The translations under genes were made by a program, and so were the position numbers. 64,000 bases of DNA. Origin: Bradyrhizobium sp. CB2312. GTDB lineage: Bacteria > Pseudomonadota > Alphaproteobacteria > Rhizobiales > Xanthobacteraceae. The stretch spans positions 3,059,501-3,123,500 of the forward strand of contig NZ_CP121668.1 in assembly GCF_029714425.1 (NCBI RefSeq), given 5' to 3'. The notes under the pieces were generated by a model. It was given only the letters and a program-made list of their open reading frames with translations, did not search any database and was not told the DNA's origin. Of the stretch, positions 15,994 through 44,985 are shown piece after piece; positions within the stretch are counted from its first letter, which is position 1, and every line of letters begins with the position of its first letter.

Positions 15994-17733
15994 ATGAAAA
16001 CGTCCATGACCAGGAAGCAATGGTACCTGTCCGGCTTCGTCGCCTTCACGTGTCTTGTCTCGACCGCTGCAATTGCCGGCCCGATCGAGAGCTACGCGCC
16101 AGTCACCCAGCAGCGCCTGGAAAATCCGGAAGCCGGCAACTGGATGCTCTACCGCCGTACCTATGACGGCCAGGGCTACAGCCCGCTCGACCAGATCAAC
16201 ACCTCGAACGTCAAGAATCTCACGCCGGTCTGGACCTTTGCCACCGGTGTCGTCGAAGGCCACGAGGCGCCGCCGATCGTCAACAACGGCGTGATGTTCG
16301 TGGCAACCCCGATGGGACAGGTGATCGCGCTCAACGCGAAGACCGGCGACGAATATTGGCGCTACAAGCGGCAGCTTCCCGACGATCTGTTCCAGCTGCA
16401 CCCAACCAGCCGCGGCGTCGGCCTCTGGGAGGACAAGCTTTATCTTGCCACCACCGACGACCATGTCGTCGCGCTCGACGCCAAGACCGGCAAGGTGGTG
16501 TGGGACACCAAGGTGCAGGACTACAAGAAGGGCCAGTACATGACCCTGATGCCGCTGATCGTCGACGGCAAGGTCATCGTCGGCGGCTCCGGCGGCGAGT
16601 TCGGCGTGCGCGGCTATGTCGCCGCCTATGACGCCAAGGACGGCAAGGAGCTGTGGCGCACCTTCACCATTCCAGGCGAGGGCGAACCCGGCCACGACAC
16701 CTGGAAGGGCGACGACTGGAAGAACGGCGGCGGCTCGGCCTGGATGACCGGCAATTACGACAAGGACACCAAGACGATCTATTGGGGCGTCGGCAATGCC
16801 GCGCCGTGGCCCGGCGAGATGCATCCCGGCGACAATCTCTACACTTCGTCGGTGCTCGCGCTCGATCCGAGCAACGGCAAGATCAAGACCTATCATCAGT
16901 ACCACCAGAACGATTCCTGGGACTGGGACGAGGTCGAGGCGCCGATGCTGATCGACCTGCAACGTGACGGCCGCAGCATCAAGAGCCTGGTCCATCCGGG
17001 ACGCGATGCGATCTTCTGGGTGCTCGAGCGCGCGCCGACCAAGATCAACTACGTCGCTGGCTGGCCGTTCGTGGCAACCGACGTCTGGAAGGGCATCGAT
17101 GCGGAGACCGGCAAGCCGATCGTCGATCCCGACCACAAGCCGGTCATCGGCAAGCGCGTCGAGTTCTGTCCGTCGCTGTGGGGTGGCAAGGACTGGCCGT
17201 CGGCGGCTTACAGCCAGAAGACGGGTCTCGTCTATGTCCCCGCTAACGAGAATTTCTGCGGCGGCTTCACCGGCGAGAAGCTTCCGCTCAAGCCGGGTGA
17301 GCTCTGGCTCGGCACCAAGCCGGAGGACATCGGCCTAAAGGCGAAGCCCGGCGCCGATCATTTCGGCGAGCTCCAGGCCTGGGATCCCACCACGGGCAAG
17401 AAAGTCTGGCAGCATAACTTCCCGAAATCGCAGCTGTTCGGCTCGGTGACGGCAACCGCGGGTGATCTCGTCTTCGCCGGGGGCACCAACGACCGCAACT
17501 TCCGCGCCTTCAACGCCAAGACCGGCGAGCTCTTGTGGGAGCAGAAGACCAACTCCGGCATCATGGGCATGCCGGTATCCTATGAGGTCGACGGCACCCA
17601 ATACGTCGCGATCCAGTCCGGCTGGGGCGTCGACGCGCAGCGCATCCAGGATGCGCTCGCGACCAACAATATCGGCATCGAGTCCAACGTGCCGCAAGGC
17701 GGCGTGATCTGGGTGTTCGCGCTGAAGAAATAG
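15994..17733 (+). CDS. PQQ-dependent alcohol dehydrogenase, DxD lanthanide type
   Basis: Periplasmic quinoprotein of the methanol/ethanol family, 579 residues with a signal peptide ending IAG. It has the eight-bladed propeller repeats (for example ALDAKTGKVVW). Predicted metal ligands are E202 (GGEFGV), N268 (GNAAPW), catalytic D310 and the extra D312 in SWDWDEV; Asp two residues after the catalytic Asp marks lanthanide-dependent enzymes. The vicinal Cys-Cys pair of MxaF and XoxF is absent (LHPTSRG in that place). The start has GGGGAA 6 bases upstream. It is not XoxF proper; the alcohol substrate is unknown. The upstream Rieske gene is its likely partner. Confidence 0.9.
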   Translation: MKTSMTRKQWYLSGFVAFTCLVSTAAIAGPIESYAPVTQQRLENPEAGNWMLYRRTYDGQGYSPLDQINTSNVKNLTPVWTFATGVVEGHEAPPIVNNGVMFVATPMGQVIALNAKTGDEYWRYKRQLPDDLFQLHPTSRGVGLWEDKLYLATTDDHVVALDAKTGKVVWDTKVQDYKKGQYMTLMPLIVDGKVIVGGSGGEFGVRGYVAAYDAKDGKELWRTFTIPGEGEPGHDTWKGDDWKNGGGSAWMTGNYDKDTKTIYWGVGNAAPWPGEMHPGDNLYTSSVLALDPSNGKIKTYHQYHQNDSWDWDEVEAPMLIDLQRDGRSIKSLVHPGRDAIFWVLERAPTKINYVAGWPFVATDVWKGIDAETGKPIVDPDHKPVIGKRVEFCPSLWGGKDWPSAAYSQKTGLVYVPANENFCGGFTGEKLPLKPGELWLGTKPEDIGLKAKPGADHFGELQAWDPTTGKKVWQHNFPKSQLFGSVTATAGDLVFAGGTNDRNFRAFNAKTGELLWEQKTNSGIMGMPVSYEVDGTQYVAIQSGWGVDAQRIQDALATNNIGIESNVPQGGVIWVFALKK

Positions 17734-21812: not shown

Positions 21813-22376
21813 TCAGGCCGCTTTGGCCTTGGCCACGTGGGTCGCGATCGCGTCCATCAGTGCCGGCGACAGGCAGTCATAGGGCTCGAGCCCGATTTCC
21901 TTCAGCCGCGCGCGGATGCCCGCCATCTGCTCCGGCTTCACGCCCGATTCGATCACGGAGGAGACGAAGGCGGCGAATTGCGGCGCCTGCGAGCCCTGCT
22001 CCTGGAACAGCTCGGGATGGATGAAGTCGAGGCCGTAGAACGGGTGGTTCTTGTTCTCGATGCGGCCGTACATGTGCGTGCCGCAGGCCTTGCAGGCATG
22101 GCGCTGGATCACCGCGGACTCATCGACGATCTGGAGCTTGTCGCCGTTTTCGAGCACGCTGACGTTCTGGCGCGGCACCACGGCGACGACCGAGAAGGTT
22201 GCGCCCTGGGGCTTCCAGCACTTGGTGCAGCCGCAGGCGTGGTTGTGGGCGACGTCGCCCTTCACCGCGACCTTGACCGGGTGGTCCTTGCATTTGCAGA
22301 CCAGCGTGCCGCCGGCAAAGCTGCCGCTGCCCTGTTTGACGCCGTTATCGATCGAGGGATGGAGTGCAACAGTCAT
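21813..22376 (-). CDS. gfa: S-(hydroxymethyl)glutathione synthase (glutathione-dependent formaldehyde-activating enzyme)
   Basis: Gfa promotes the condensation of formaldehyde with glutathione, 187 residues, normal length. The zinc-binding cysteines are visible: CKC near 27-29, ACGCTKC near 48-54, and [10 protein letters not shown] near 96. It is the last gene of the xoxF operon, 33 bp after frmA, and supplies its substrate. Together they remove the formaldehyde made by XoxF. Confidence 0.95.
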
Positions 22377-22409
22377 GGGTCGATCCTCCTTGGGTGCGAT
22401 GCCTGTGGG

Positions 22410-23519
22410 CTAGTACACGACGACGGAACGGATGGATTTGCCCTCGTGCATGAGGTCAAAGCCCTTGTTGATCTCTTCGAGCTTGAGTACGTGGGTGATC
22501 ATCGGATCGATCTGGATCTTTCCGTTCATGTACCAGTCGACGATCTTCGGCACGTCGGTGCGGCCGCGCGCGCCGCCGAAGGCGGTGCCGCGCCAGTTGC
22601 GCCCGGTGACGAGCTGGAACGGGCGGGTGGCGATCTCCTTGCCGGCTTCGGCGACGCCGATGATGATCGAGGTGCCCCAGCCGCGATGGCAGGCTTCCAG
22701 CGCCTGGCGCATCACGGTGGTGTTGCCGGTGCAGTCGAAGGTGTAGTCGGCGCCGCCGTCGGTGAGGCCGACGAGATGTTGGACGATGTCGCCCGTGACC
22801 TTCTTCGGGTTGACGAAGTGGGTCATGCCGAACCGCTTGCCCCAATCTTCCTTGGAATCGTTGACGTCGACGCCGATGATCTTGTCGGCGCCGGCCATCT
22901 TGGCGCCCTGGATCACGTTGAGGCCGATGCCGCCGAGACCGAACACGACGACGTTGGAGCCCGGCTCGACCTTGGCGGTGTTGACGACGGCGCCGACGCC
23001 GGTGGTGACGCCGCAGCCGATGTAGCAGCTCTTGTCGAAGGGCGCGTCCTCGCGGATTTTGGCGACCGCGATCTCCGGCAGCACGGTGAAGTTCGAGAAG
23101 GTCGAGCAGCCCATGTAGTGATAGATCGGCTTGCCCTTGTAGGAGAAGCGGCTGGTGCCGTCGGGCATCACGCCCTTGCCTTGCGTCGCGCGGATCGCGG
23201 TGCAGAGATTGGTCTTCTGGCTCAGGCAGCTTTTGCACTGCCGGCATTCCGGCGTGTAGAGCGGAATGATATGGTCGCCCGGCTTCACCGAGCTCACGCC
23301 GGGGCCGATCTCGCGGATGATGCCGGCGCCTTCATGCCCCAGGATCGATGGGAAGATTCCCTCGCTGTCGAAGCCGTCGAGCGTGTAGGCGTCGGTGTGG
23401 CAGATGCCCGTCGCCTTGATCTCGACCAGGACCTCGCCGGCCTTGGGTCCTTCCAGATCGACTTCGACGATCTCGAGCGGCTTCTTGGCTTCGAAAGCGA
23501 CGGCGGCACGTGTCTTCAT
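22410..23519 (-). CDS. frmA: S-(hydroxymethyl)glutathione dehydrogenase / class III alcohol dehydrogenase
   Basis: Zinc enzyme that oxidises S-hydroxymethylglutathione to S-formylglutathione with NAD, 369 residues. Catalytic zinc site [12 protein letters not shown] and [12 protein letters not shown], structural zinc cysteines in [28 protein letters not shown], and the NAD-binding [20 protein letters not shown] are all intact. It lies 60 bp after xoxG in the operon. The name flhA is used for the same enzyme in Paracoccus. The formyl-glutathione hydrolase that should follow is not in the window. Confidence 0.95.
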
Positions 23520-23579
23520 CGGTAGCTCCTCAAATTCTCAGCAGACGCCAGGACGTAGTCTTGGCAGTCTCCGTAACGT

Positions 23580-24101
23580 TCATTTCTTGCCCATGCAGGC
23601 GTCTTCAGCCTTGGTGTAGGCCTCGTTCTTCTCTTCCTTCTTGGAAGGACGCTGCCGGCCCCAGGCTTCGGTCGAGCGGGCGCGGAGATAGACGTAGAGA
23701 TCGTCCATGTAGCAGGCGACATTCGGGTTGTCCCCGAACGCCGGCATGACGTTCTCCTGCGCGGTCGAGATGTTCTTGCGGCCGGAGGCGACCACGCCGA
23801 GGAAGTCGCCGTAGCTCATGGTCTTGACGGAATCCTTCAGCGCCGGTGCGTAAGTGGATCCCATGCCGTCGGGGCCATGGCAGACGTGGCAATCGGAGTG
23901 ATAACGGCGGTAGCCGGAATAGGTGAACCAGTCCACGGTGCCGTCGGCCGAAATCTTGTAGGTCGGATTGCCTTCCTTATCGAGCCACTTGCCGTCGTCT
24001 TCCTTCTTCACGGCGGTCGGGTCGCCCGGACCGTCCGCGATCGCAATTCCTCCCGACCCAACGAAGATCATCGCAGCAATGACAAAGCAGATTTTACGCA
24101 A
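23580..24101 (-). CDS. xoxG: c-type cytochrome of the methanol-metabolism family, XoxG-like
   Basis: Periplasmic electron acceptor of XoxF, 173 residues if it starts at TTG 24101, which has GAGGAA 7 bases upstream and gives a clean signal peptide (MRKICFVIAAMIFVG...IAIA). An ATG at 24158 would add an Arg-rich leader without a binding site. The heme motif is C71-H-V-C74-H75 and M119 (NVMPAFG) is the probable sixth ligand; two more Cys (130 and near the end) fit the four-Cys methanol-related cytochromes. It lies between xoxF and frmA. Confidence 0.9.
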   Translation of the reverse strand: MRKICFVIAAMIFVGSGGIAIADGPGDPTAVKKEDDGKWLDKEGNPTYKISADGTVDWFTYSGYRRYHSDCHVCHGPDGMGSTYAPALKDSVKTMSYGDFLGVVASGRKNISTAQENVMPAFGDNPNVACYMDDLYVYLRARSTEAWGRQRPSKKEEKNEAYTKAEDACMGKK

Positions 24102-24181
24102 GAGATTGTTCCTCGGAAGGCGTTCGGTGGAGACGAACCGGCGCGTGGAGCGATCCACGCGCCGGAGCGATGCTGAGGGGC

Positions 24182-25987
24182 CTAGTTGGGCAGCGAGAAC
24201 ACGGTCAGCGTGCCGCCGAGAGCCGTGTAGTTGCTGAGCGCCGCGTAGCCGCCGACTGCGCCGAGACCTGCGGTCGGATCGGTCAGACCGGCTGCCAGAC
24301 CGATGCCGGCCCAGCCGCCGACGCCCGAGAGCACTGCGACATACTGCTTGCCGCCGTTCTCATAGGTGGTGACGTTGCCGATGATGCCCGACGGAGTCTT
24401 GAACTTGTAGAGCTCCTTGCCGGACTTGGCGTCGACCGCCTTCAGGTAGCCTTCGAGCGTGCCGTAGAACACCACGCCGCCGGCGGTTGCGAGCGCACCC
24501 GACCAGACCGAGAACTGCTCCTTGTTCGACCAGACGATCTTGCCGGTCTTGCCGTCCCAGGCGATGAAGTTGCCCATGTGGCTTTCACCCTGCGGCGGAT
24601 ACATCGAGAGCGTCGCACCCACATAGGGCTGGCCCGCGGTGTAGCTCACCTTGAACGGCTCGTAGTCCATGCAGACGTGGTTGGTCGGGACGTAGAACAG
24701 CTGCGTGTCCGGCGAGTAGGCTGCCGGCTGCTCGTCCTTGGTGCCGAGCGCGGCCGGGCAGATGCCCTTCACGTTGTGGTCCTCGCCCGCCTTGTCGGTC
24801 GAAGCTGCGTCGAGCACCTTCGGACGGCCATAGGTCGCCGAGTTCTTGTCCATGTCGACGCCGGAGGTCCAGTTCACCTTCGGATCGTACTTTTCGGCGA
24901 CCAACAGTTCGCCGCTCTCACGATCCATGGTGTAGGCGAGACCGTTGCGGTCGAAATGGGTCAAGAGCTTGCGCGCCTGGCCGTTGATCTGCTGATCCGA
25001 GAGGATCATCTCGTTGACGCCGTCATAGTCCCACTCGTCGTGGGGCGTCATCTGATAGACCCACTTGGCCATGCCGGTGTCGGCGTCGCGCGCGAAGATG
25101 GTCATCGACCACTTGTTGTCGCCCGGACGCTGCTTCGGATTCCAGGTCGAGGGATTGCCCGACCCGTAATAGACGAGGTTCAAAGCGGGATCGTAGGACA
25201 TCCAGCCCCAGGTGCAGCCGCCGCCGATCTTCCACTGATCGCCTTGCCAGGTCTTCAGCGAGGAGTCGGCTCCGACCGGCTTGCCGAGCGACGTCGTCTT
25301 GGCCGGATCGACCTTGATCTGGTCATCCGGGCCTTCGGAGAAGGCACGCCAGACCTGCTTGCCGCTCTTGAGATCGTAAGCGGTGACGTGGCACTGCACG
25401 CCGAATTCGCCGCCGGAGATGCCGACCAGGACCTTGTCCTTGACGACTAGCGCCGCCGACGTGCCGGTCTCGCCCTTCGCCGGATTGCCGTTCGTCGCCG
25501 ACCAGGCCACCTGGCCGGTCTTGGCGTCGAGCGCGACGAGGTTGGTGTCGGCCTGATGCAGGATGATCTTGCCGTCGCCGTAGGACAGGCCGCGGTTAAC
25601 CGTGTCGCAGCACATCACCGGGATGACGTTCGGATCCTGCTTCGGCTCGTACTTCCAGATGATCTTGTTCTCGTTGGAAAGGTCAATGGCGTAGACCTTG
25701 TTCGGGAACGGTGTGTGGACGTACATGACGTTGCCGACGATCAGCGGGCCACCTTCATGGCCGCGCAGCACGCCGGTGGAGAAGGTCCAGGCGACCTGGA
25801 GCTTGCCCACGTTTTGTGCGTTGATCTGGTTCAGCTTGGAATAGCGGGTATTGGCGTAGTCGCCCGCCGGCATCACCCAGTCTTTCGGGTTCTGCGACAT
25901 CTTGATCAGCTCATCATTGGCTGAGGCGCTGCCGACGGCGAGAGCCGCCGCGGAGCCAAGATAGGTCGCCAGTAGCACCTTGCGCAT
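24182..25987 (-). CDS. xoxF: Lanthanide-dependent methanol dehydrogenase XoxF
   Basis: Periplasmic PQQ methanol dehydrogenase, 601 residues, oxidising methanol to formaldehyde (or further). ATG 25987 has GGAGGAATAACT directly upstream and gives a signal peptide ending SASA. Key residues by position: vicinal Cys126-Cys127 (MCCDTVNRG), metal ligands E194 (GGEFGV) and N278 (GNPSTW), catalytic D320 and the lanthanide-specific D322 in EWDYDGVNE. The sequence is of the XoxF5 type. It heads the operon xoxF-xoxG-frmA-gfa. Bradyrhizobium XoxF enzymes are known to need light lanthanides. Confidence 0.96.
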
Positions 25988-26502
25988 AGTTATTCCTCCG
26001 TTGGTCTCGTTTATTGTTTCCGAAGCATTGATCAATCACCGGGCTTCTCGTCCGGCGTCTGCTCGTGCAGGGCGGTCACGATTGGGACCAGAAACGATGC
26101 TGTGCTGTTTCCTCCTCCTGGATGAGAGCCACGGGTCCACCGTGCAGGAGCGGCCCGTTCTTGTTGTTCCTGACGCAATCCCTAACGGCTTCATCATAGG
26201 GAAACTTGCCCAAGAGAGAAGGCGGTTTGCTTGACAGCGCACGGAGGCGAAGATTTTGATTTTGCAGTAGCGAATTCAGCGGCTTCCGCGCGGCTTCTGG
26301 AGCGCCGTCAGCACTCAGGTTCCCCTTGACGGCGGTGCAACTAAGGCGGAGGATTAACCCTCAAGGGTGGCAATGGAGCGATGGCGCTCGCTGCAAAAGA
26401 CCGCTCAAATTCGAGGTAAACGTCACGCAATCACGGCTGAGGGCTCCGGCACGCCGGTCGCGATTCGCGTCGAATCTCCGGATCAAACCAGTGGCTGGAT
26501 TA
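25988..26502. promoter_or_regulatory. Divergent control region between xoxF and the AraC regulator
   Basis: 515 bp with no gene I can support. It must hold the promoters of xoxF (minus) and of the araC-type gene (plus). The only fixed element is the xoxF ribosome binding site GGAGGAATAA at about 25991-26000. A TTGACA at 26232 lacks a convincing -10 partner. Confidence 0.5.
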
Positions 26503-30440: not shown

Positions 30441-31364
30441 TCACCGCTGAATGATCTTCATCCAGACGTCGCCCAGGATTGCGGGCTCGCGCGGCGGCAG
30501 ATAGGTGAGGCCGGCCTGCTTGCCGAGCTCCGCGATCCTGCCGTCCGCTGCAAGCTCCGTCAGCGCCTTGTTGACGGCATCCATCAGCGCGCCATTGCTG
30601 GCAAGCCCGACATAACCGCGATTGGCGCCGATCGGGTAATAATAGCCGGAGGCGGTGACGGCCGTATCGGGATGCGCGGCGCGATAGGCGTCGAACCGGG
30701 CAAGATCGATCAGGGTCGCGTCATAGTCGCCGCGCTGGAGCGCGCCGAGCAGGTCGTCGCGCCCGGGGACGAGATGGGTGATATTGTCGATCAGGCGTCC
30801 CCTGTCGAACGTCATCAGGATGGCATCGCCGAGCGAGCCGCTCTCGATCGCGAGGCGAAGGCCCGCGAGATCGCCGACGTCGCCGATCTTGCGGTTCTGC
30901 GCCGTCGGCCCCAGCACCACCGTCATCGGCGAATAGAGATAAGGCTGGCTCGGCGCAAGCACGCCGAGCGCGACACGGCGGCGCCTGTCATCGCGCGTCG
31001 CGCCGGAAAAGTCCGGCAGGCGCGCCGTCTTCATGCCGGGCTTGACGAGGGAATCCGCCGTCAGCGCGTAGCCGCCGACCAGCGCGCAGCGTCCGTCGGA
31101 GAGCAGCGCGTTGGCTTCGAGTTGCGGGCTGGAATCCTCATCCAGCTTGCTCTCGAACCACTGGATCGTCAGCGGTCGCCCCATACGCTGCGCGACCGCC
31201 TGGGCCAGCAGCACGTCGAAGCCGGCATCCGGCTTGCCCCTGTGATGCGCCGAGAGCGGCGGCCGGTCCTCGTCGAGGCAGATCTTGAGTGGATCGTCTG
31301 CCGCATGCGCGGTGGTCGCCGCGAGAATCGCGCCAACGCTCCATGCTGCAAGCCAGGTCTTCAC
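30441..31364 (-). CDS. XoxJ/MoxJ-like quinoprotein-associated periplasmic binding protein
   Basis: Periplasmic protein of 307 residues with a signal peptide ending AHA/A and a type 2 periplasmic-binding fold (LKICLDEDRPPLSAHH; GFDVLLAQAVAQRMGRPL; GLRLAIESGSLGDAIL). It is the last gene of an operon PQQ dehydrogenase-cytochrome c-this gene, and its ATG overlaps the cytochrome stop. The same gene order is seen for xoxF-xoxG-xoxJ, where XoxJ is thought to help activate the dehydrogenase. The role here is inferred from that order and the fold. Confidence 0.8.
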   Translation of the reverse strand: MKTWLAAWSVGAILAATTAHAADDPLKICLDEDRPPLSAHHRGKPDAGFDVLLAQAVAQRMGRPLTIQWFESKLDEDSSPQLEANALLSDGRCALVGGYALTADSLVKPGMKTARLPDFSGATRDDRRRRVALGVLAPSQPYLYSPMTVVLGPTAQNRKIGDVGDLAGLRLAIESGSLGDAILMTFDRGRLIDNITHLVPGRDDLLGALQRGDYDATLIDLARFDAYRAAHPDTAVTASGYYYPIGANRGYVGLASNGALMDAVNKALTELAADGRIAELGKQAGLTYLPPREPAILGDVWMKIIQR

Positions 31365-31717
31365 GGCTTTCTCCGGCTCGAAACGAAGGCCCAGAGATTC
31401 CCGATCTCATCGTCGCTGAGGATGTCGCCCCAAGGCGGCATCTTGTTGTTCTTGCCGTTCTTCACCGTGGTGACGAAGCGCGTCTTATCGTCGGGAAAGG
31501 CGCGCAGGTCCGGCGTGATGGTGCCGGAGTTCATCAGATTTGGACCGTGGCAGTGCGAACATTTCGAGGCGTAGGTTGACTTGCCATGGTCGATCTGCGC
31601 CTGCACGGGATCGCCGGTCGTCTCATCCGCGGCACGGACGGTCGCCGCAAGCGCGACCGTCAGCACCAGGGCGGTGGCGAGGACCGCCACCGTCTTGTGA
31701 GAGATGTGTTTCAGCAT
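31361..31717 (-). CDS. Small c-type cytochrome partnered with the third PQQ dehydrogenase
   Basis: Periplasmic monoheme cytochrome, 118 residues from ATG 31717, signal peptide ending TVRA/A. The heme motif is C53-S-H-C56-H57 and M93 (NKMPPWG) is the probable axial ligand. It lies 10 bp after the PQQ dehydrogenase stop and its own stop overlaps the start of the XoxJ-like gene, so the three are one operon. It should take electrons from the dehydrogenase. Confidence 0.9.
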   Translation of the reverse strand: MLKHISHKTVAVLATALVLTVALAATVRAADETTGDPVQAQIDHGKSTYASKCSHCHGPNLMNSGTITPDLRAFPDDKTRFVTTVKNGKNNKMPPWGDILSDDEIGNLWAFVSSRRKP

Positions 31718-31727
31718 CGTGCCGCGG

Positions 31728-33392
31728 TTATTGCTTGACCGCAAAGACCCACAGCGAGCCGCCGGCCGGCACGCCCGCAAGCCGTTCGTCCCCCGAGAAG
31801 ATCGAGTAGACGCCGCCATAGCCGCTGGTCACGGCGACATATTGCACGCCGTCCTGCTGCCATGTGATCGGTTGTCCCTCGATCCCCGAGCCGGTCTGGA
31901 ACTGCCAGAGCTTCTTGCCGCTGTCGGCGTCGAATGCTTCAAACTCTCCGGTCAACGCGCCCGTGAATACGACGCCGCCCGCGGTCGACAACACCCCAGA
32001 GAAGCGGGGGATGTCGCTCGGCGCCTCCCACTTCGCCTTGCCGGTCATCGGATCGATCGCCTTGAGGTGACCACGCGGCCCGTCGGGCCAGTCCCAGAGG
32101 TCCGTCAGATCCATGCCGAGGTACCATTCGCCGGCCTTATAGGTCACTGGCTCGGTCTTGTAGTGACCGCCGAATGCGAGCGTGTTGGCATAGGCGAGTC
32201 CGGTCTGCGGATTGAACGACATCGGCTCCCAGTTCTTGCCACCGAGCAGTGATGGGTAGACGACAACCTTCTTGCCTTCGCGTGCGTCCTTCGAAACGTC
32301 CGTCTCGATTGGCCGGCCCGTCTTCATGTCGATGCCGGTCGCCCAGTTCACCTTCACATAAGGATTGGCCGCGAGCAGCTTCCCATTGGTGCGGTCGAGC
32401 ACGTAGAAGAAGCCGTTGCGGTTGGCGTCCATCAGCACCTTGGTCGGCTTGCCCTCGACGTTCATGTCGGCGAGCACCATCTCGGCCACGCTGTCATAGT
32501 CGAACGGGTTGTTCGGCGAGAACTGGTAGTGCCACTTGATCTTGCCGGTCTTGGGATCCATCGCCAGCACGGAGCAGGTGTAGAGATTGTCGCCGGGGCG
32601 TACTGCCGAATTGAACGGTCCGGGATTGCCGATGCCCCAATAGACCGTGTTCAGCTCGGGATCGTAGGAGCCGGTGATCCAAGTCGAGCCGCCGCCGAGC
32701 TTCCAGGTGTCGCCCTTCCAGGTATCGCCGCCGGGCTCGTCCGGCGAGGGGATCGAATGGGTGCGCCAGAGATGCTTGCCCGTTGCCGGATCCCAGCCGT
32801 CGATGAAGCCGCGGGTGCCAAACTCGGCGCCGGAGATGCCGGTGATGACGACGCCGTCGGCCACCAGCGGGGCCACGGTCATCGAATAGCCTTCCTTGAT
32901 GTCGGCCGCCTTCTGCCGCCACAGCTCCTTGCCATCCTTGGCATCGAGCGCGATCACGTTGGCGTCGAGCGTGGTGCGAAACACTTTTCCGTCGTAGAGC
33001 GCGGCGCCGCGGTTGATGATGCCGCAGCAGACGACGCGCGGCGTCTCGGCGGGATATTCGATCTTGGATTTCCAGATCTGCTTGCCGGTCTTGGCGTCGA
33101 CCGCCATGGTCGCGTTGTGGGAGGTCACGTAGATCACGCCCTGGTACACCAGGGGCTGGGATTCCTCGCTACGATCATCGTTGAAGGAGTAGTTCCAGAC
33201 CGGGACGAGGTTCTTGATCGTGTCCTTGTTGATCTGGTTCAGCGTCGAGAAACGCTGGAGATTGTAGCCCATCCCGTAGTTGAGAACGTTCGATGTATCG
33301 GTCGCGCCATTGACCAGTTGCTCGGTGGTCTGAGCGCTTGCACATGTCGATGCAAGCATGACGAGGCTCGCGGCCATCGCAAAGCGTTTCAT
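31728..33392 (-). CDS. PQQ-dependent alcohol dehydrogenase with Cys-Cys pair and DxD motif
   Basis: Periplasmic quinoprotein, 554 residues; ATG 33392 has GGGAGGAACGG upstream and gives a signal peptide ending CASA/Q. Vicinal Cys122-Cys123 (VVCCGIINRG), metal ligands E190 (GAEFGT) and N256 (GNPGPF), catalytic D298 and D300 in PFDYDSVAE. The DxD pair predicts lanthanide use, but sequence away from the active site differs from XoxF, so ethanol or longer alcohols are possible substrates. It heads an operon with a cytochrome c and a XoxJ-like protein. Confidence 0.92.
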   Translation of the reverse strand: MKRFAMAASLVMLASTCASAQTTEQLVNGATDTSNVLNYGMGYNLQRFSTLNQINKDTIKNLVPVWNYSFNDDRSEESQPLVYQGVIYVTSHNATMAVDAKTGKQIWKSKIEYPAETPRVVCCGIINRGAALYDGKVFRTTLDANVIALDAKDGKELWRQKAADIKEGYSMTVAPLVADGVVITGISGAEFGTRGFIDGWDPATGKHLWRTHSIPSPDEPGGDTWKGDTWKLGGGSTWITGSYDPELNTVYWGIGNPGPFNSAVRPGDNLYTCSVLAMDPKTGKIKWHYQFSPNNPFDYDSVAEMVLADMNVEGKPTKVLMDANRNGFFYVLDRTNGKLLAANPYVKVNWATGIDMKTGRPIETDVSKDAREGKKVVVYPSLLGGKNWEPMSFNPQTGLAYANTLAFGGHYKTEPVTYKAGEWYLGMDLTDLWDWPDGPRGHLKAIDPMTGKAKWEAPSDIPRFSGVLSTAGGVVFTGALTGEFEAFDADSGKKLWQFQTGSGIEGQPITWQQDGVQYVAVTSGYGGVYSIFSGDERLAGVPAGGSLWVFAVKQ

Positions 33393-33717
33393 CCGTTCCT
33401 CCCAATATGCGCGCCTTTTGACGCTGCGACGTAACACTCCGCCCGAATGCAAAACCCGTCAATACGAAAGTCGAAAGTGCGCCGCCGATATGCGGATGTG
33501 CCTTACGGAAACCTGACAATCGACCCGCGCTTGTGTGCAGGCGCTGCAAAAAATTCCGTGGCATGAAGCGGTGCCGAGCGCAGACCACCGGTTTCGACCA
33601 GCGGGTTCCGCGGGTTGTGCGGTGCGCAGGTTGCATTCCGGGCTTGAATCGGGGCAGGCTTGTGGACTTATGTCATTTTCGCCCCGCGAGATCAGGGGCT
33701 CTGGCCAGGAGGTTTCG

Positions 33718-34110
33718 ATGATGTCACGTCGCTCTATTGCGCTTGCGCTCACCATTGCAGTGCTGTCCGGTCCGGCCTGGTCGGCTTCCGGCAGCGCGGT
33801 GAAGATGTTCGACACCGACAATGACGGCACGCTCGATCTCGCCGAGGTGAAGAAGGCTGCGAGCGCCTTGTTCGCCAAGCTCGATCCCGACCACGACGGC
33901 ACCCTCGATGCGCGCGAGTTGCGCGGGCGGTTATCGGCGAAAGAGCTCGCTGCCGCCGATCCTGATCACGACGGGACTCTCACGCTCGACGAATACCTGG
34001 CGGTGGTCGAGCAGCGCTTCAACGCAGCCAATCCCGACAAGGACGGGACGCTGGATGCGAAGGAGTTGAACTCGCGCGCCGGCCGCGCGCTGCTGCGCTT
34101 GCTGCGCTGA
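33718..34110 (+). CDS. lanM: Lanmodulin homologue (periplasmic lanthanide-binding EF-hand protein)
   Basis: 130 residues; ATG 33718 (or 33721) follows AGGAGG by 5 bases. A signal peptide (ALALTIAVLSGPAWSA) precedes four EF-hand loops: 32-43 (DTDNDGTLDLAE), 56-67 (DPDHDGTLDARE), 81-92 (DPDHDGTLTLDE) and 105-116 (NPDKDGTLDAKE). The spacings of 24, 25 and 24 residues, Pro at loop position 2 in three loops and Asn at position 1 of the fourth are features of lanmodulin of methylotrophs, which binds lanthanides with picomolar affinity. The C-terminus (RAGRALLRLLR) also aligns. Odd points: loop 1 has Thr in place of Pro and loop 3 has Thr at position 9. It is divergent from the third PQQ dehydrogenase operon, 325 bp away. 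Confidence 0.9.
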   Translation: MMSRRSIALALTIAVLSGPAWSASGSAVKMFDTDNDGTLDLAEVKKAASALFAKLDPDHDGTLDARELRGRLSAKELAAADPDHDGTLTLDEYLAVVEQRFNAANPDKDGTLDAKELNSRAGRALLRLLR

Positions 34111-34254
34111 GCGCCTCAACCGGAACAAGCCGACGACGGCGGATTGCGATCAATTCCGCCCCGACATCAGGAACATCGGGCTGCCCGGCCTGTTCTCTCC
34201 GCAACTCCTGCCGGCGCCCGGGGCTGCGCGAAGGGAAGAGAGGAGATGATGCAG

Positions 34255-34584
34255 ATGAACACGAAACGATCCGTACTTGCTGCATGCGCGATCCTGACGT
34301 TGAGCGCCGGTGTCGCCGTCGCGGGCCCCTGCAACACCGGCAGCGCAGCCAACGACAAGGATGCCGGCTCCGGTCCCGTCACGGTGGGCTCGGCGCAGTC
34401 CCATTCGTCGAGTCCAGCGAGCGACACCAGCCAGCATCCGCCGACCAGCACGATGAATCGCGCGAGCGGTGAAACACCGGCGTCGTCCGAGGATGCGCAG
34501 CGGCAGATGCAGAGCGAGCCGACAGCGGCTCAGCGGGCCGAAGGTGCCAAGCCGAACACAGCGACGGCCGACAAAGGTTGCTGA
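34255..34584 (+). CDS. Small exported Ser/Thr/Ala-rich protein next to lanM
   Basis: 109 residues from ATG 34255 (AGGAG 9 bases upstream); ATGs at 34246 and 34249 are in frame but too close to the binding site. A signal peptide (VLAACAILTLSAGVAVA/G) is followed by a low-complexity chain with one Cys near each end (GPCNTGSA and DKGC), which could form a disulfide. No family is recognised. It lies 144 bp after lanM on the same strand and may be co-transcribed. Confidence 0.6.
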   Translation: MNTKRSVLAACAILTLSAGVAVAGPCNTGSAANDKDAGSGPVTVGSAQSHSSSPASDTSQHPPTSTMNRASGETPASSEDAQRQMQSEPTAAQRAEGAKPNTATADKGC

Positions 34585-34812
34585 CGGCGAGGCCCAGGGT
34601 CGTGTCGATTCGACGCCCGGTGCGCCGCACAAGCTGGCTCTCAGTGGGTCGTGTTTGACCAAGAGGGAACTGGCTTTGCCCGAGAGAGAAATGCAGTCGC
34701 GAAGAATCGACACAGACCTGCACGACACTCGAATCGAAGCTTGAACTATGGAGGAGGCAGCCCTAGGTTTTGCCCCGCGCGATGTCGCGCTCAATTCCTT
34801 GGGGAGACCCGA

Positions 34813-34893
34813 ATGGCCTGGAAAGCTCCGAAGATCGTGGAAGTGCCGGTCGGCATGGAAATCAACATGTACGCCTGCGCTGCGCGCAAGTAA
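34813..34893 (+). CDS. pqqA: PQQ precursor peptide PqqA
   Basis: A 26-residue peptide starting MAWKAPKIVEV with the invariant Glu16 and Tyr20 in GMEINMY; these two side chains are cross-linked by PqqE to form PQQ. Length and residue positions match PqqA exactly. GGGGAGA lies 6 bases upstream of the ATG. A strong hairpin follows 19 bp after the stop and pqqBCDE are not downstream, so pqqA stands alone here; the rest of the pathway must be elsewhere. Confidence 0.93.
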   Translation: MAWKAPKIVEVPVGMEINMYACAARK

Positions 34894-34912
34894 GCAAGTA
34901 AGTCTGACGACC

Positions 34913-34952
34913 TGCCGCGGCTTCGATGGCGAATGCCGTCGAAGCCGCGGCA
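34913..34952 (+). terminator. Hairpin after pqqA
   Basis: TGCCGCGGCTTCGA, 12-base loop, TCGAAGCCGCGGCA: a perfect 14-bp stem with no long T run. It would end or attenuate the pqqA transcript. Confidence 0.65.
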
Positions 34953-35144
34953 GTGTTGCTGCCGCTCATGGCCGCGTCCCGCAGGTTGTCCTCGATGCTT
35001 TGCCGTTGATGCAAAGCCACACTTGTCCGGACGTCGGCACTTCTCCTCCAAAATCCCAATCGTGCTCTAGCCGCAGTGTGTTACGCTGATCCCTCAGTCA
35101 GCGCTGTTGCCGTATCAAATCGGCGCGCGCATGCGGAAGACGGG

Positions 35145-36767: not shown

Positions 36768-38423
36768 TGGCTGTGTGAAAAGTCACGAGTCGGCTAGGAT
36801 TCTTCCGTTTCCTGATGGGGGATACGGATGGGACGCTTCGTTGAAGGCGCGGACAGATCCCAGCTGACGCTCTTGCCGGAATGTCTGGAGGATTGGGTAG
36901 GCGAGGACAACGCGGTCCACGTGATCGATGTGTTCGTCGAGGCGCTCGACCTGCATGGAATGGGGTTTGAGCGTGTGATCGCCAAGGAGACGGGCCGGCC
37001 CTCCTATCATCCGGCAGTCCTTCTGAAGCTTTACATCTACGGTTATCTCAATCGGCTGCAATCCAGTCGCCGCCTGGAACGTGAGACGTGCCGCAATGTC
37101 GAGGTAATGTGGCTGATTGGGCGCCTGGCTCCCGATCACAAGACGATCGCCGATTTCCGGAAGGATAACGGCGCGGCGATCCGGAAGGTTTGCGCGAAGT
37201 TCGTTGCACTATGCCGGCAAATGGGCCTGTTGCAGACCGCAAGCGTCGCAATCGACGGCAGCAAGTTCAAGGCGGTGAACAACCGCGACCGCAACTTCAC
37301 GCATGCCAAGATGGCAAGGCGGATGGCGCAGATCGAGGAAAGCGTCGGTCGATATCTGCGTCAACTCGATAGCGCCGATCGGCAGGAGCCATCGGAAGCG
37401 ATCAGCATCAAGACGACGAGGATCAAGGAAAAGATCGCTCGGCTGAAGCAGGAGATGAGCCGCCTGGAAGTGCTTGATGCGCAGATGCGCAACACGCCGG
37501 ATCAACAGATATCGCTGACCGATCCGGATGCCCGTTCGATGGCCACCAGCGGACGCGGATCGGGTGTCGTCGGCTACAACGTCCAGGTCGCGGTGGACAC
37601 CGAACACCATCTGATTGTGACGCACGAGGTCATAAACGTCGGCAACGACCGTGGGCAGCTTGCTCGGATGTCGAAGCAGGCCAAAGAAGTGCTCGCAGTG
37701 GACAAACTCGATGCGGTCGCCGATCGTGGCTACTTCGACGGAGAGGAGATATTGGCCTGCGAAGAGGCTGGCGTTGCAGTCACCTTGCCCAAGCCCATGA
37801 CGTCGAACGCCAAGGCGGAGGGCCGGTTCGGCAAACAGGACTTCGCCTACCTGCCTGATGAGGATGTCTACCGCTGCCCATCGGGCCAGCTGCTGCCCTA
37901 TCACTTCACCAACATCGAGCATGGAATGACGCTGCGCCGTTACTGGTCGACGGCGGCATGCCAAGGCTGCGCGATCAAGAGCCAATGTACGCCGTCCAAG
38001 GAGCGCCGGATCACGCGCTGGGAGCATGAGCATGTGGTCGAGGAGGTCCAGCGACGGCTCGATTCCAATCCTGACGCCATGCGGACGCGACGTGAGACAG
38101 TCGAGCATCCCTTCGGCACGATCAAAGCCCGTATGGGTGCGACCCACTTCCTGATGAAGCGCCTACGGAATGTCGCCGCTGAGATGGCGCTGCATGTTCT
38201 CGCCTATAACCTCACACGGGTGATGAACATCGTCGGCAAACCGCGCCTGATTGCAGCCATCCGCGCCGCCTGAAGGCCGGAAAGCGCGTCCAAAACCGCA
38301 ATACCCCGTCGCGATACCCACTTTGGCCGGTCATTGGACGATCCGATGCGTCAGCACCGGCCGCCTGCAATGATTGGCGACCACGCCGCGTCCGACCTAT
38401 CCGTTTGCACACAACCAAGACCC
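36763..38423 (+). mobile_element. IS1182-family insertion sequence, copy 1
   Basis: 1661 bp identical to 39987-41647 over its full length. Ends: GACCCTGGCTGTGTGAAAA on the left; the right end read in reverse is GGGTCTTGGTTGTGTGCAAA. The GACCC on both sides may be a 5-bp target duplication or part of the ends. It encodes one transposase. Confidence 0.9.
36828..38273 (+). CDS. IS1182-family transposase, copy 1
   Basis: 481 residues, complete. N-terminal DUF772-type region (RPSYHPAVLLKLYIYGYLN; SRRLERETCRNVEVMWL; PDHKTIADFRKDNG), then a DDE domain with Asp in VAIDGSKFKAVN, Asp in DAVADRGYFDGEEI and a late Glu in RRETVEHPFGTIKARMG. A Cys-rich insertion (ACQGCAIKSQC) lies before the final Glu, as in IS1182. 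It is intact and identical to the second copy, so it may be active or recently so. Confidence 0.95.
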   Translation: MGRFVEGADRSQLTLLPECLEDWVGEDNAVHVIDVFVEALDLHGMGFERVIAKETGRPSYHPAVLLKLYIYGYLNRLQSSRRLERETCRNVEVMWLIGRLAPDHKTIADFRKDNGAAIRKVCAKFVALCRQMGLLQTASVAIDGSKFKAVNNRDRNFTHAKMARRMAQIEESVGRYLRQLDSADRQEPSEAISIKTTRIKEKIARLKQEMSRLEVLDAQMRNTPDQQISLTDPDARSMATSGRGSGVVGYNVQVAVDTEHHLIVTHEVINVGNDRGQLARMSKQAKEVLAVDKLDAVADRGYFDGEEILACEEAGVAVTLPKPMTSNAKAEGRFGKQDFAYLPDEDVYRCPSGQLLPYHFTNIEHGMTLRRYWSTAACQGCAIKSQCTPSKERRITRWEHEHVVEEVQRRLDSNPDAMRTRRETVEHPFGTIKARMGATHFLMKRLRNVAAEMALHVLAYNLTRVMNIVGKPRLIAAIRAA

Positions 38424-38446: not shown

Positions 38447-39769
38447 CTACACGATTGAAGTTCGCCGCGCAGCGAAGATCCGCACCCCTTCGGCCAGTCC
38501 CTTGAGCGCATGAACGCCGCGATCCTCGAAGGAGAGACCAGAGCCCGCAACCAGATCCCTGAGCACACTCGACGTTAGGATCTCCCCCGGGGCAGCCAGT
38601 TGAGCAACGCGAGCTGCGACGTGTACGGCAATCCCGCCAATATCATTCGGTAAAATCTCTATCTCCCCGGTGTGCAGACCGGCCCGAACTTCCAGGCCCA
38701 GGTCGCGCACGGTTTCACGAACAGCCTCGGCGCAACGTACTGCACGGGCGGGACCGTCGAACGTTGCAACAAACCCATCGCCGGTCGTCCTGATTTCCTT
38801 GCCACGAAATCGAGCGATCTCGCGACGCACGCTCGAATCATGCCTAACCAAGAGATGGCGCCATTCGCGGTCGCCAAGTGAGCACACGCGCTCTGTCGAA
38901 CCGACAATATCGGTGATCAATACGGTCGCTAAACAACGTTCCATTTCGGAATGAGAGCGTGACCCGGTCAAGAATTCTTCTATTTCGTCAAGAATGCGTT
39001 GTGAGTCTCCTGCGCAGAACAGGTGATCACTTCCCGACAACTCGACGTAGCGCGCACCGGCAATGTGTGTGGCCAGATAACGGCTCGCCGCGACATTCAC
39101 CCGCGGGTCATTTGTTCTGTGCATTATCAACGTGGGTACGTGAATGACGGGTAAGACGCCGCGGATGTCAATTTCGCTGTTCATGCGCATGAGCGTTTTC
39201 ACGTCCGACGGGCTGGCGCCGAGGCGCTCGAAGCGCGCCCACCAGTTGCGAAACGCCCTGTCTTGGGCAAGGCTCGGTGCAAACCCGGGAACAAGCGCTC
39301 CGCTCCCCCATGACTGTTCAACCTCTTCCAAGAAACCGGCAAGTTTATCCGGCGACATCACGGCCGTCGAAAACAGGCCATAAGAGCCATAGAGCATCAG
39401 AGCAAGGGTACGGTCAGGATGTGTGGCAGCGAACAGCAGTGACATCGGACCGCCCTCAGAAATGCCGAGGAATGCTGCGCGTTTCGAACCGACCGCGTCC
39501 ATCACCGCACGCGCGTCATCCATTCGCTCCTCAAGCGTAGGAATTGCCGTAACCCGATCTGACAACCCCGTTCCGCGCTTATCAAAGCAGATCAAGCGAG
39601 CGAAGGAGGCGAGCCGTTCCATGAAGCCGGCCCAGCGAGGTTCATCTCAAACATGATCGACATGCGAGATGAATCCCGGTACCCAGACAAGATCGAGTGG
39701 ACCGTTCCCAATGACCTGATAAGCGATATGGACCTCGCCGCTTCTGGCGTATCGGGTTTCGGGAAGCAT
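38447..39769 (-). pseudogene. Alpha/beta-hydrolase-adenylate cyclase fusion with one in-frame TGA
   Basis: From ATG 39769 the frame reads MLPETRYARSGEVHIAYQVI and continues to a TGA at 39647-39649 after 40 codons, then goes on in the same frame for 400 codons. Homologues of this hydrolase-cyclase family have Trp at that place. The hydrolase part keeps DKRGTGLSDRV and GISEGGPMSLL (Ser nucleophile) and a late SDHLF; the class III cyclase part has VLITDIVGSTERV, RTTGDGFVATFDGP and VRAGLHTGEIE. One base change (TGG to TGA) would explain the break. Restart at ATG 39622 would lack the first strand of the hydrolase. The gene lies between two identical IS copies. Confidence 0.8.
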
Positions 39770-39991: not shown

Positions 39992-41647
39992 TGGCTGTGT
40001 GAAAAGTCACGAGTCGGCTAGGATTCTTCCGTTTCCTGATGGGGGATACGGATGGGACGCTTCGTTGAAGGCGCGGACAGATCCCAGCTGACGCTCTTGC
40101 CGGAATGTCTGGAGGATTGGGTAGGCGAGGACAACGCGGTCCACGTGATCGATGTGTTCGTCGAGGCGCTCGACCTGCATGGAATGGGGTTTGAGCGTGT
40201 GATCGCCAAGGAGACGGGCCGGCCCTCCTATCATCCGGCAGTCCTTCTGAAGCTTTACATCTACGGTTATCTCAATCGGCTGCAATCCAGTCGCCGCCTG
40301 GAACGTGAGACGTGCCGCAATGTCGAGGTAATGTGGCTGATTGGGCGCCTGGCTCCCGATCACAAGACGATCGCCGATTTCCGGAAGGATAACGGCGCGG
40401 CGATCCGGAAGGTTTGCGCGAAGTTCGTTGCACTATGCCGGCAAATGGGCCTGTTGCAGACCGCAAGCGTCGCAATCGACGGCAGCAAGTTCAAGGCGGT
40501 GAACAACCGCGACCGCAACTTCACGCATGCCAAGATGGCAAGGCGGATGGCGCAGATCGAGGAAAGCGTCGGTCGATATCTGCGTCAACTCGATAGCGCC
40601 GATCGGCAGGAGCCATCGGAAGCGATCAGCATCAAGACGACGAGGATCAAGGAAAAGATCGCTCGGCTGAAGCAGGAGATGAGCCGCCTGGAAGTGCTTG
40701 ATGCGCAGATGCGCAACACGCCGGATCAACAGATATCGCTGACCGATCCGGATGCCCGTTCGATGGCCACCAGCGGACGCGGATCGGGTGTCGTCGGCTA
40801 CAACGTCCAGGTCGCGGTGGACACCGAACACCATCTGATTGTGACGCACGAGGTCATAAACGTCGGCAACGACCGTGGGCAGCTTGCTCGGATGTCGAAG
40901 CAGGCCAAAGAAGTGCTCGCAGTGGACAAACTCGATGCGGTCGCCGATCGTGGCTACTTCGACGGAGAGGAGATATTGGCCTGCGAAGAGGCTGGCGTTG
41001 CAGTCACCTTGCCCAAGCCCATGACGTCGAACGCCAAGGCGGAGGGCCGGTTCGGCAAACAGGACTTCGCCTACCTGCCTGATGAGGATGTCTACCGCTG
41101 CCCATCGGGCCAGCTGCTGCCCTATCACTTCACCAACATCGAGCATGGAATGACGCTGCGCCGTTACTGGTCGACGGCGGCATGCCAAGGCTGCGCGATC
41201 AAGAGCCAATGTACGCCGTCCAAGGAGCGCCGGATCACGCGCTGGGAGCATGAGCATGTGGTCGAGGAGGTCCAGCGACGGCTCGATTCCAATCCTGACG
41301 CCATGCGGACGCGACGTGAGACAGTCGAGCATCCCTTCGGCACGATCAAAGCCCGTATGGGTGCGACCCACTTCCTGATGAAGCGCCTACGGAATGTCGC
41401 CGCTGAGATGGCGCTGCATGTTCTCGCCTATAACCTCACACGGGTGATGAACATCGTCGGCAAACCGCGCCTGATTGCAGCCATCCGCGCCGCCTGAAGG
41501 CCGGAAAGCGCGTCCAAAACCGCAATACCCCGTCGCGATACCCACTTTGGCCGGTCATTGGACGATCCGATGCGTCAGCACCGGCCGCCTGCAATGATTG
41601 GCGACCACGCCGCGTCCGACCTATCCGTTTGCACACAACCAAGACCC
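39987..41647 (+). mobile_element. IS1182-family insertion sequence, copy 2
   Basis: Identical to 36763-38423, same orientation, 3224 bp downstream. The flanks differ completely (CTAT before, AAACC after). With copy 1 it brackets a 1.56-kb segment that holds the hydrolase-cyclase gene, the form of a composite transposon. Confidence 0.9.
40052..41497 (+). CDS. IS1182-family transposase, copy 2
   Basis: 481 residues, identical in sequence to the protein of the first copy, with the same Asp/Asp/Glu motifs (VAIDGSKF, VADRGYFDG, TVEHPFG). It is complete. Full identity indicates very recent duplication or gene conversion. Confidence 0.95.
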   Translation: MGRFVEGADRSQLTLLPECLEDWVGEDNAVHVIDVFVEALDLHGMGFERVIAKETGRPSYHPAVLLKLYIYGYLNRLQSSRRLERETCRNVEVMWLIGRLAPDHKTIADFRKDNGAAIRKVCAKFVALCRQMGLLQTASVAIDGSKFKAVNNRDRNFTHAKMARRMAQIEESVGRYLRQLDSADRQEPSEAISIKTTRIKEKIARLKQEMSRLEVLDAQMRNTPDQQISLTDPDARSMATSGRGSGVVGYNVQVAVDTEHHLIVTHEVINVGNDRGQLARMSKQAKEVLAVDKLDAVADRGYFDGEEILACEEAGVAVTLPKPMTSNAKAEGRFGKQDFAYLPDEDVYRCPSGQLLPYHFTNIEHGMTLRRYWSTAACQGCAIKSQCTPSKERRITRWEHEHVVEEVQRRLDSNPDAMRTRRETVEHPFGTIKARMGATHFLMKRLRNVAAEMALHVLAYNLTRVMNIVGKPRLIAAIRAA

Positions 41648-43815: not shown

Positions 43816-44985
43816 TTAAGGCCCCATCCTGGCCGAGGCGGGATGTCCGGGCACCTGGAAGCGCTTGCCGGTGTCCATGATGTTGCTGCCATCGACCTTC
43901 AGGATCGAGAAGTCCTGCGTAAGGTAGTTGCCAACAAGGAGGTAATTGCCGTCGGGCGTGAACACTGCCGCTTCGGGTAAGCCGCCCACCTCGATGTCTC
44001 CAGTCTTGCTCACTTTCTTCCCGTCGATCTTGAGCACCGAAATGCTGCCGTTCTTTTCGTAGAAGTATGCGTTCTTCATATTTGAACCGCGCAGAATCAC
44101 GGCAACCGCGACGTCGCCCTTTGGGCTGATTGCGAGTCCCTCGGGGCCGTCGCCCACCACCACGCGATCGATGATGCGCGGCGGATTGGCCTCCAAATCA
44201 ATGACGCTCGTGGTATCCACACTTCCATCGGAAGCACCCGCATTACCATTGTCAGAGGTTAGGGCGATTTTCCCGGCCGGTGCGACCGCAACATTGTACG
44301 GCCATTGGCCGGTGGGCAGATCAATCTTGTTGTACGTCACCTTTTCGCCCGCAACGTCCAGCATGGAGATCTTATGAGCAGGGAAGCGGGCGACCAAGGC
44401 TCGCTTGCCATCCGGGGTGAACGTCACGTGCGACGGACTGTCCGGCATCGCAACGGTGTCCGTGATCTTCACGTCCGTGCCGTTCACGGAGAGGACGCTG
44501 ATCGAATTGTCTCCGCGATTGGAGACCAGTGCCATCTTGCCATCTGGGCTGAAGCTGAGCCCTGAAGGCTGCTTCCCACCCGTGAGCGTTGCCGCCAGCT
44601 TAGGCGGATTGGCCTGCAGGTCGACGACGTAGATCCTATTATCGAGCATCTGTTTCAGCGCGTCGCCGTCCTTGACGACATCGACGGAGTCGGCGACCAG
44701 CGCCACCGCGCCGCTGGGATCGATCGCAACGTTCACGGGCGGTCCGACGACCGAGTTCTTGAGCGGCAGGGCAGCGATGATCTTGGGGGTCTCAGGAGAT
44801 GCGAGGTCGACGATCAGAACTTGATCCTTGCCGGGTGCGGACAGAATGGGCTTGCCGCTTTCGTCCCACAGAAGTTTCTCATCGAGGCCGACAATCATGA
44901 AGGGCTTCGCGTGCCCAGTGCTAAAGCTCGTAGTTAGCAGCATGACGGCCGCGAATGATAGTCCTATGGAACGGTTACGCGACAT
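43816..44985 (-). CDS. Exported YVTN/YncE-type beta-propeller protein
   Basis: 389 residues with a signal peptide (AAVMLLTTSFSTGHA/K). Repeated units of about 45 residues of the form PSGLSFSPDGKMALVSNRGDN and PSHVTFTPDGKRALVARFP indicate a seven-bladed propeller. Such proteins bind partners or ligands in the periplasm and have no clear enzyme motif. It is divergent from a Tat-exported sulfatase 545 bp away. Confidence 0.8.
   Translation of the reverse strand: MSRNRSIGLSFAAVMLLTTSFSTGHAKPFMIVGLDEKLLWDESGKPILSAPGKDQVLIVDLASPETPKIIAALPLKNSVVGPPVNVAIDPSGAVALVADSVDVVKDGDALKQMLDNRIYVVDLQANPPKLAATLTGGKQPSGLSFSPDGKMALVSNRGDNSISVLSVNGTDVKITDTVAMPDSPSHVTFTPDGKRALVARFPAHKISMLDVAGEKVTYNKIDLPTGQWPYNVAVAPAGKIALTSDNGNAGASDGSVDTTSVIDLEANPPRIIDRVVVGDGPEGLAISPKGDVAVAVILRGSNMKNAYFYEKNGSISVLKIDGKKVSKTGDIEVGGLPEAAVFTPDGNYLLVGNYLTQDFSILKVDGSNIMDTGKRFQVPGHPASARMGP

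Follow-up and report, generated by a model that had tools for sequence, protein, structure and literature searches.

Here, we describe a lanmodulin gene (lanM) of the nitrogen-fixing soil bacterium Bradyrhizobium sp. CB2312 (GCF_029714425.1) and the genes around it, in a 64,000-nucleotide stretch of contig NZ_CP121668.1 (positions 3,059,501 to 3,123,500) that was analysed as a whole and is called the window below; all coordinates are those of the window. Papers cited by PMC number are represented by excerpts, except where a main text is named. The locus contains the following features, in which ADH is the alcohol dehydrogenase gene divergent from lanM and Asp+2 denotes an Asp at the second residue past the catalytic one:

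15994..17733, + strand: third PQQ alcohol dehydrogenase, Asp+2
21813..24158, - strand: xoxF partners, namely a c-type cytochrome (TIGR03874), a class III alcohol dehydrogenase (TIGR02818) and an S-(hydroxymethyl)glutathione synthase (TIGR02820)
24182..26035, - strand: xoxF, lanthanide methanol dehydrogenase (best PDB match 6oc5)
30441..31364, - strand: solute-binding protein (SBP_bac_3) of the ADH cassette, by domain search
31361..31819, - strand: cytochrome c (CBB3-type domain) of the ADH cassette, by domain search
31728..33452, - strand: ADH, PQQ alcohol dehydrogenase of the ethanol-dehydrogenase (PedH/ExaF) type, Asp+2, likely start ATG 33392, by profile and alignment
33393..33717, no strand: ADH-lanM intergenic region, taking ATG 33392 as the ADH start, with conserved blocks at about 33457-33473 and about 33643-33672
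33718..34110, + strand: lanM, lanmodulin, 130 aa, with an N-terminal signal-like segment (residues about 1-23, by eye)
33811..33846, + strand: EF loop 1, DTDNDGTLDLAE, Thr at position 2 (starts at residue 32)
33883..33918, + strand: EF loop 2, DPDHDGTLDARE (starts at residue 56)
33958..33993, + strand: EF loop 3, DPDHDGTLTLDE, Thr at position 9 (starts at residue 81)
34030..34065, + strand: EF loop 4, NPDKDGTLDAKE, Asn at position 1 (starts at residue 105)
34249..34584, + strand: small secreted-looking, Ser/Thr-rich protein between lanM and pqqA
34813..34893, + strand: stand-alone pqqA, 26 aa

The lanM reading frame comprises 130 codons, and AGGAGG is found at 33707-33712, 5 bases 5' of its ATG (33718). 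A longer in-frame start is available at GTG 33535; the 130-codon start is favoured because homologues are mostly 130-135 aa long (120 listed of 4889 homologues). The gene is single-copy in the genome and encodes a protein with four carboxylate-rich EF hands in fewer than 200 residues, as in other lanmodulins (LanMs), and with an N-terminal segment that is hydrophobic by eye and may direct it to the periplasm. The protein passes the NCBIfam LanM equivalog NF053806 over residues 3-130 (186.6 bits against a cut-off of 135, E 1.8e-55). Its best PDB sequence matches are to the LanM of Methylorubrum extorquens AM1 (Mex-LanM; E 8.4e-34 and 1.2e-33), followed by a lanthanum-bound Ancylobacter lacus protein (3.2e-22) and Hans-LanM (5.7e-22), and the next match is to a chain named HeliScrew4 (1e-7). 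The predicted model has the LanM fold. In the phylogeny, 12 distant EF-hand proteins of the class lie outside the LanM group (SH-aLRT 87); Hans-like rows amid the Bradyrhizobium rows of this tree form an unresolved long branch and were not used.

Curated profile, sequence, predicted fold and tree thus all agree with the first-pass annotation, which had named a lanmodulin homologue in a Bradyrhizobium-like genome; the host is borne out by the nearest named LanM loci (best 80 of 286), 79 of which are from Bradyrhizobium and one from a record titled Frankia sp. RB7. The latter (L207, JAUEPE010000019.1) carries a Bradyrhizobium-type LanM locus at 93% identity with the same neighbours, and is likely mislabelled or contaminated. 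Public records name LanM homologues as calcium-binding or EF-hand protein, and Thr aligns at position 9 of loop 3 in 5 of those 12 distant proteins, with a gap in 2 others, as might suit an ordinary calcium-binding EF-hand protein that is LanM-like by descent and has no lanthanide selectivity. We consider this highly improbable, given the equivalog match, the position of those 12 proteins outside the LanM group, and a predicted fold and short inter-loop spacing that are those of LanM and unlike those of calmodulin. A calmodulin-like protein is ruled out by profile, fold and tree.

Direct reading of the loops gives starts at residues 32, 56, 81 and 105 (spacing 24/25/24), Pro at position 2 of loops 2-4, Thr at that position of loop 1 and Thr at position 9 of loop 3, all as first annotated. 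LanMs are described as having 12-13 residues between adjacent EF hands (PMC10232371), and 12, 13 and 12 residues separate the 12-residue loops here; LanMs also carry Pro at position 2 in one or more EF hands, as loops 2, 3 and 4 do here. The spacing was also counted in 84 cores, omitting 12 of the 120 listed proteins whose loops did not match the pattern; this count is partly built in, since the search pattern admits near-LanM spacing alone. The Asn that starts loop 4, which had been listed as a lanmodulin feature, is present here but not fixed, being N in 105 and D in 36 of 141 distinct Bradyrhizobium cores (a group set by locus number, so that the Frankia sp. RB7 record may be among them). 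Across these cores, EF1 position 2 is T in 106, P in 32, S in 2 and L in 1, EF3 position 9 is T in 140 and S in 1, and position 9 of EF1, EF2 and EF4 is D in 141/141. The 140/141 and 106/141 counts rule out that the loop differences are a quirk of one genome: EF1 Thr2 and EF3 Thr9 are clade traits of Bradyrhizobium LanM. Bradyrhizobium LanMs outside the ADH/pqqA locus (L046, L049, L088, L097, L099, L175-L177, L180) also keep Thr at EF3 position 9.

Among LanMs of known structure, Mex-LanM (PDB 6mi5, 8fns) is identical to the window LanM at 63 of 102 residues and shares with it the 24/25/24 loops, EF4 Asn1, Pro2 in EF2-4 and the LanM fold (predicted for the window protein), but has Pro at EF1 position 2 and Asp at EF3 position 9, where the window LanM has Thr. 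The Hans-LanM cluster (Hansschlegelia 8dq2; Ancylobacter 9pi2) has the same LanM spacing, with the fold also shared by 8dq2; however, the Glu at position 9 of EF1-3 that marks Hans-LanM is D, D and T here, and the Asn1/Lys2 of EF1 and EF3 are lacking. The residues at loop position 9 and positions 1/2 rule out a Hans-type LanM, and the window LanM is nearer to Mex-LanM. The LanM of M. aquaticum 22A shares Thr at EF1 position 2 with the window LanM, but has Lys instead of Pro at EF2 position 2; it is itself La-induced and La-responsive, still changes shape with La, and is encoded beside neighbours that, as described, differ from the window's (PMC9260416).

Positions 1, 2 and 9 of LanM EF loops have been named as important, and D9 of Mex-LanM hydrogen-bonds metal-bound solvent (PMC10232371). 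At EF3 position 9, LanMs of other genera have D in 9, T in 3 and E in 2 cases (n=14), and the D/T state changes 4 times on a tree made with this column masked, at least 3 of the changes being forced by supported branches. From the genus counts, the tree changes and the role of D9 in Mex-LanM, EF3 Thr9 is a lineage trait at a meaningful site. Loss of Asp9 at EF3 alone, with EF1, EF2 and EF4 unchanged, may have retuned this hand, altering affinity or light/heavy lanthanide or actinide preference, and EF3 could be weaker or more Ca-tolerant. A published study reportedly dealt with engineering selectivity. The repeated T/D changes suggest that the substitution may be tolerated instead of selected, and we advance a retuned EF3 only tentatively.

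The window encodes three PQQ alcohol dehydrogenases that pass TIGR03075 (15994-17733, 24182-26035 and 31728-33452), and all of them are Asp+2 by alignment (WDWD, WDYD, FDYD), which is the lanthanide signature of PQQ alcohol dehydrogenases; these signatures and the nearby pqqA (34813-34893) had been read correctly at first pass. The best PDB matches of ADH are the quinoprotein ethanol dehydrogenases 6zcv (E 6.8e-138), which we take to be the lanthanide-type PedH, and 1flg (5.8e-132), presumably the calcium-type enzyme, and its FDYD aligns to WDFD of the former and WDFS of the latter. Such Asp pairs are also listed for XoxF (PMC11845868).

An AraC-type regulator lies left of the ADH cassette, followed by xoxF. 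Conserved blocks occur at both ends of the ADH-lanM intergenic region, which was aligned over 33453-33717 for 97 of 117 distinct sequences (200-330 nt; the other 20 are longer). A sigma-70 scan of 33380-35100 returned 0 sites, and an Rfam search of 15000-48000 returned no match. The genome has two copies of pqqA, and the one at 34813-34893 is regarded as stand-alone because the other adjoins pqqB, C, D and E. The small protein between lanM and pqqA has no Pfam match and has a relative in 21 of 60 genus loci, once on the other strand; a 312-aa protein past pqqA is without an NCBIfam match and is present in 43 of the 60. Right of the lanM locus, two 481-aa transposase-like ORFs of identical translation (36828-38273, 40052-41497) bracket a hydrolase/adenylate-cyclase-like ORF (38447-39622; all names by eye), a relative of the two lies at 47458-48906, and a beta-propeller protein (43816-44985) has a sub-threshold match to the PQQ-associated TIGR03866 (77.9 vs 287.3 bits). 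A lut-like cluster starts about 71 kb downstream of lanM, with TIGR03863, 03866, 03864 and 03861, a TonB receptor and SoxH/SoxYZ-like genes. The lanM of AM1 lies inside the lut cluster (PMC9260416), whereas that of the window lies at this distance from the lut-like cluster, beside ADH and pqqA.

Gene order was compared at 60 genus loci (58 genomes) hand-chosen among the matches listed, mostly from complete genomes. The divergent ADH, cytochrome and binding protein and a downstream pqqA accompany lanM at 53 of them, which are orthologous and not independent, and none of the four is found at the remaining 7. This count comes from a tighter pqqA pattern, the first one having given spurious, uncounted hits in L061, L071, L072, L097, L173 and L177; pqqA is retained even though roughly 0.34 to 1.2 kb separate it from the midpoint of lanM. 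Not one of these four neighbours is found at any of 18 loci of other genera (14) or with other lanM types of the genus (4), looser limits included. Among the named loci (best 80 of 286), all four are present in 74, one is without the binding protein, and the cassette is missing beside a retained pqqA in five, of which one is at a contig end; the sets of 60 and 80 share genomes and are not additive. Four loci (L238, L244, L250, L256) have lanM and pqqA with the ADH cassette absent at that locus. A close xoxF (at least 90%) lies in the fetched stretch at 40 of the 53 cassette loci (40/60 across genus loci) and is missing from it at 13, one of these stretches being only 11 kb long; conversely, xoxF lies 2.5-6.3 kb from lanM in L244, L250 and L256, where the cassette is missing. 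XoxF as a fixed lanM neighbour was accordingly not upheld.

In L285-L287, ADH lies near pqqA but lanM is missing; these loci come from genomes with no LanM match and are natural empty sites for lanM. The same is seen in L263-L265, where another lanM lies elsewhere in the genome; from these loci, lanM looks like a part that comes and goes. Other surroundings of lanM were also seen: it lies near lut-like genes and a TonB receptor in another genus (L171), 2.5 kb from a TonB receptor at three genus loci (L175-L177), and beside another PQQ dehydrogenase in L046 and L049, with a TonB receptor about 5 kb off.

All 62 LanM-bearing genus genomes examined have ADH, as against 8 of 36 in the genus that have no LanM passing the cut-off (ADH identity at least 87%; xoxF in 28/36), a contrast evaluated by a Fisher test. 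The 36 were drawn from 65 genus genomes below the LanM cut-off (48 without any match and 17 with a weak match), and comprise 20 of the 48 (the other 28 are not among the matches listed) and 16 of the 17 (G127 was left out). With kinship controlled by means of an rpoB tree (30 chosen genomes, among which G152 filled only 10% of columns and G065 was partial), the co-occurrence was not significant; three supported independent pairs differ in LanM, and ADH agrees in about one and is contrary in none. That LanM goes with this ADH across the genus is a lead, not a result.

A search for LanM in Bradyrhizobium, as proposed at first pass, placed 200 of 265 genus genomes over the NF053806 cut-off; LanM was found in 110 of 391 genomes of a family sample (genus included) and in 3 of 385 of a class sample, two of them Bradyrhizobium. 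The window gene is a new LanM of a known family, ordinary in kind and common in the genus. The novelty implied by the first-pass annotation did not hold, as LanM in Bradyrhizobium is already published, both from one genome, with three Pro-bearing EF domains and no co-localisation with XoxF (PMC10875860), and as 15 plasmid LanMs (PMC12482762). Neither the ADH/pqqA linkage nor EF3 Thr9 is mentioned in the excerpts of these two reports. The main text of a Bradyrhizobium XoxF-CBB paper (PMC12628762) contains no lanmodulin or LanM term, that of PMC10232371 does not name the genus Bradyrhizobium, and no description of the ADH-lanM-pqqA linkage was found in listings and excerpts of the literature on lanmodulin with Bradyrhizobium, pqqA or rhizobial nodules.

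The results above establish the family of the window protein, its predicted fold, the make-up of its loops, how widely the gene occurs in the genus and the order of its neighbours. It is a Bradyrhizobium lanmodulin that, in our judgement, quite probably acts as a secreted four-EF-hand lanthanide binder. By analogy with known LanMs, it would be periplasmic and would bind lanthanide ions, probably with high affinity at EF1-3 and low affinity at EF4, folding as it does so. LanM may then buffer or carry lanthanide for the divergent PedH/ExaF-type dehydrogenase, and also for the nearby xoxF, while the pqqA behind it may raise PQQ supply, such that one locus would provision both enzyme cofactors. 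The carrier and PQQ-supply reading, which is drawn from conserved gene order, is less certain than the rest. Against it, neither a lanM deletion mutant of M. aquaticum 22A nor a lanM knockout made in the delta-mxaF background of M. extorquens PA1 is impaired in methanol growth (PMC9260416), so that delivery by LanM to an enzyme is a proposal.

LanM might instead act as a sink for lanthanides or as a signal, protecting the envelope or tuning regulators, since delta-lanM cells of M. aquaticum aggregate and turn permeable when exposed to La, with altered mxcQ expression and methanol growth kept (PMC9260416). The gene is, however, tied to the ADH cassette and pqqA at most Bradyrhizobium loci seen, and we give such a role somewhat less than even standing. 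We would be similarly cautious with the fullest form of the carrier reading, which we put forward as a possibility: in Bradyrhizobium, lanM, pqqA and the PedH/ExaF-type dehydrogenase could make up one compact module for cofactor provision, built around a single divergent control region; LanM would there serve a multi-carbon alcohol dehydrogenase instead of, or besides, XoxF, and EF3 would be retuned by the genus-wide Asp9-to-Thr change.

The cellular role of LanM is unsettled, as methylotroph mutants have little growth phenotype (PMC9260416), and growth of Bradyrhizobium symbionts on methanol has been reported when lanthanides are supplied (PMC12997859). A genus in which lanM usually lies beside a lanthanide-type enzyme and a PQQ precursor gene is a place to test delivery. 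Specialist interest lies in two features, the Thr9 of EF3 as a genus-wide trait and the conserved order of ADH, lanM and pqqA, and the natural EF3 Thr9 series is a set with which position 9 and metal preference may be tested, with a use in rare-earth separation.
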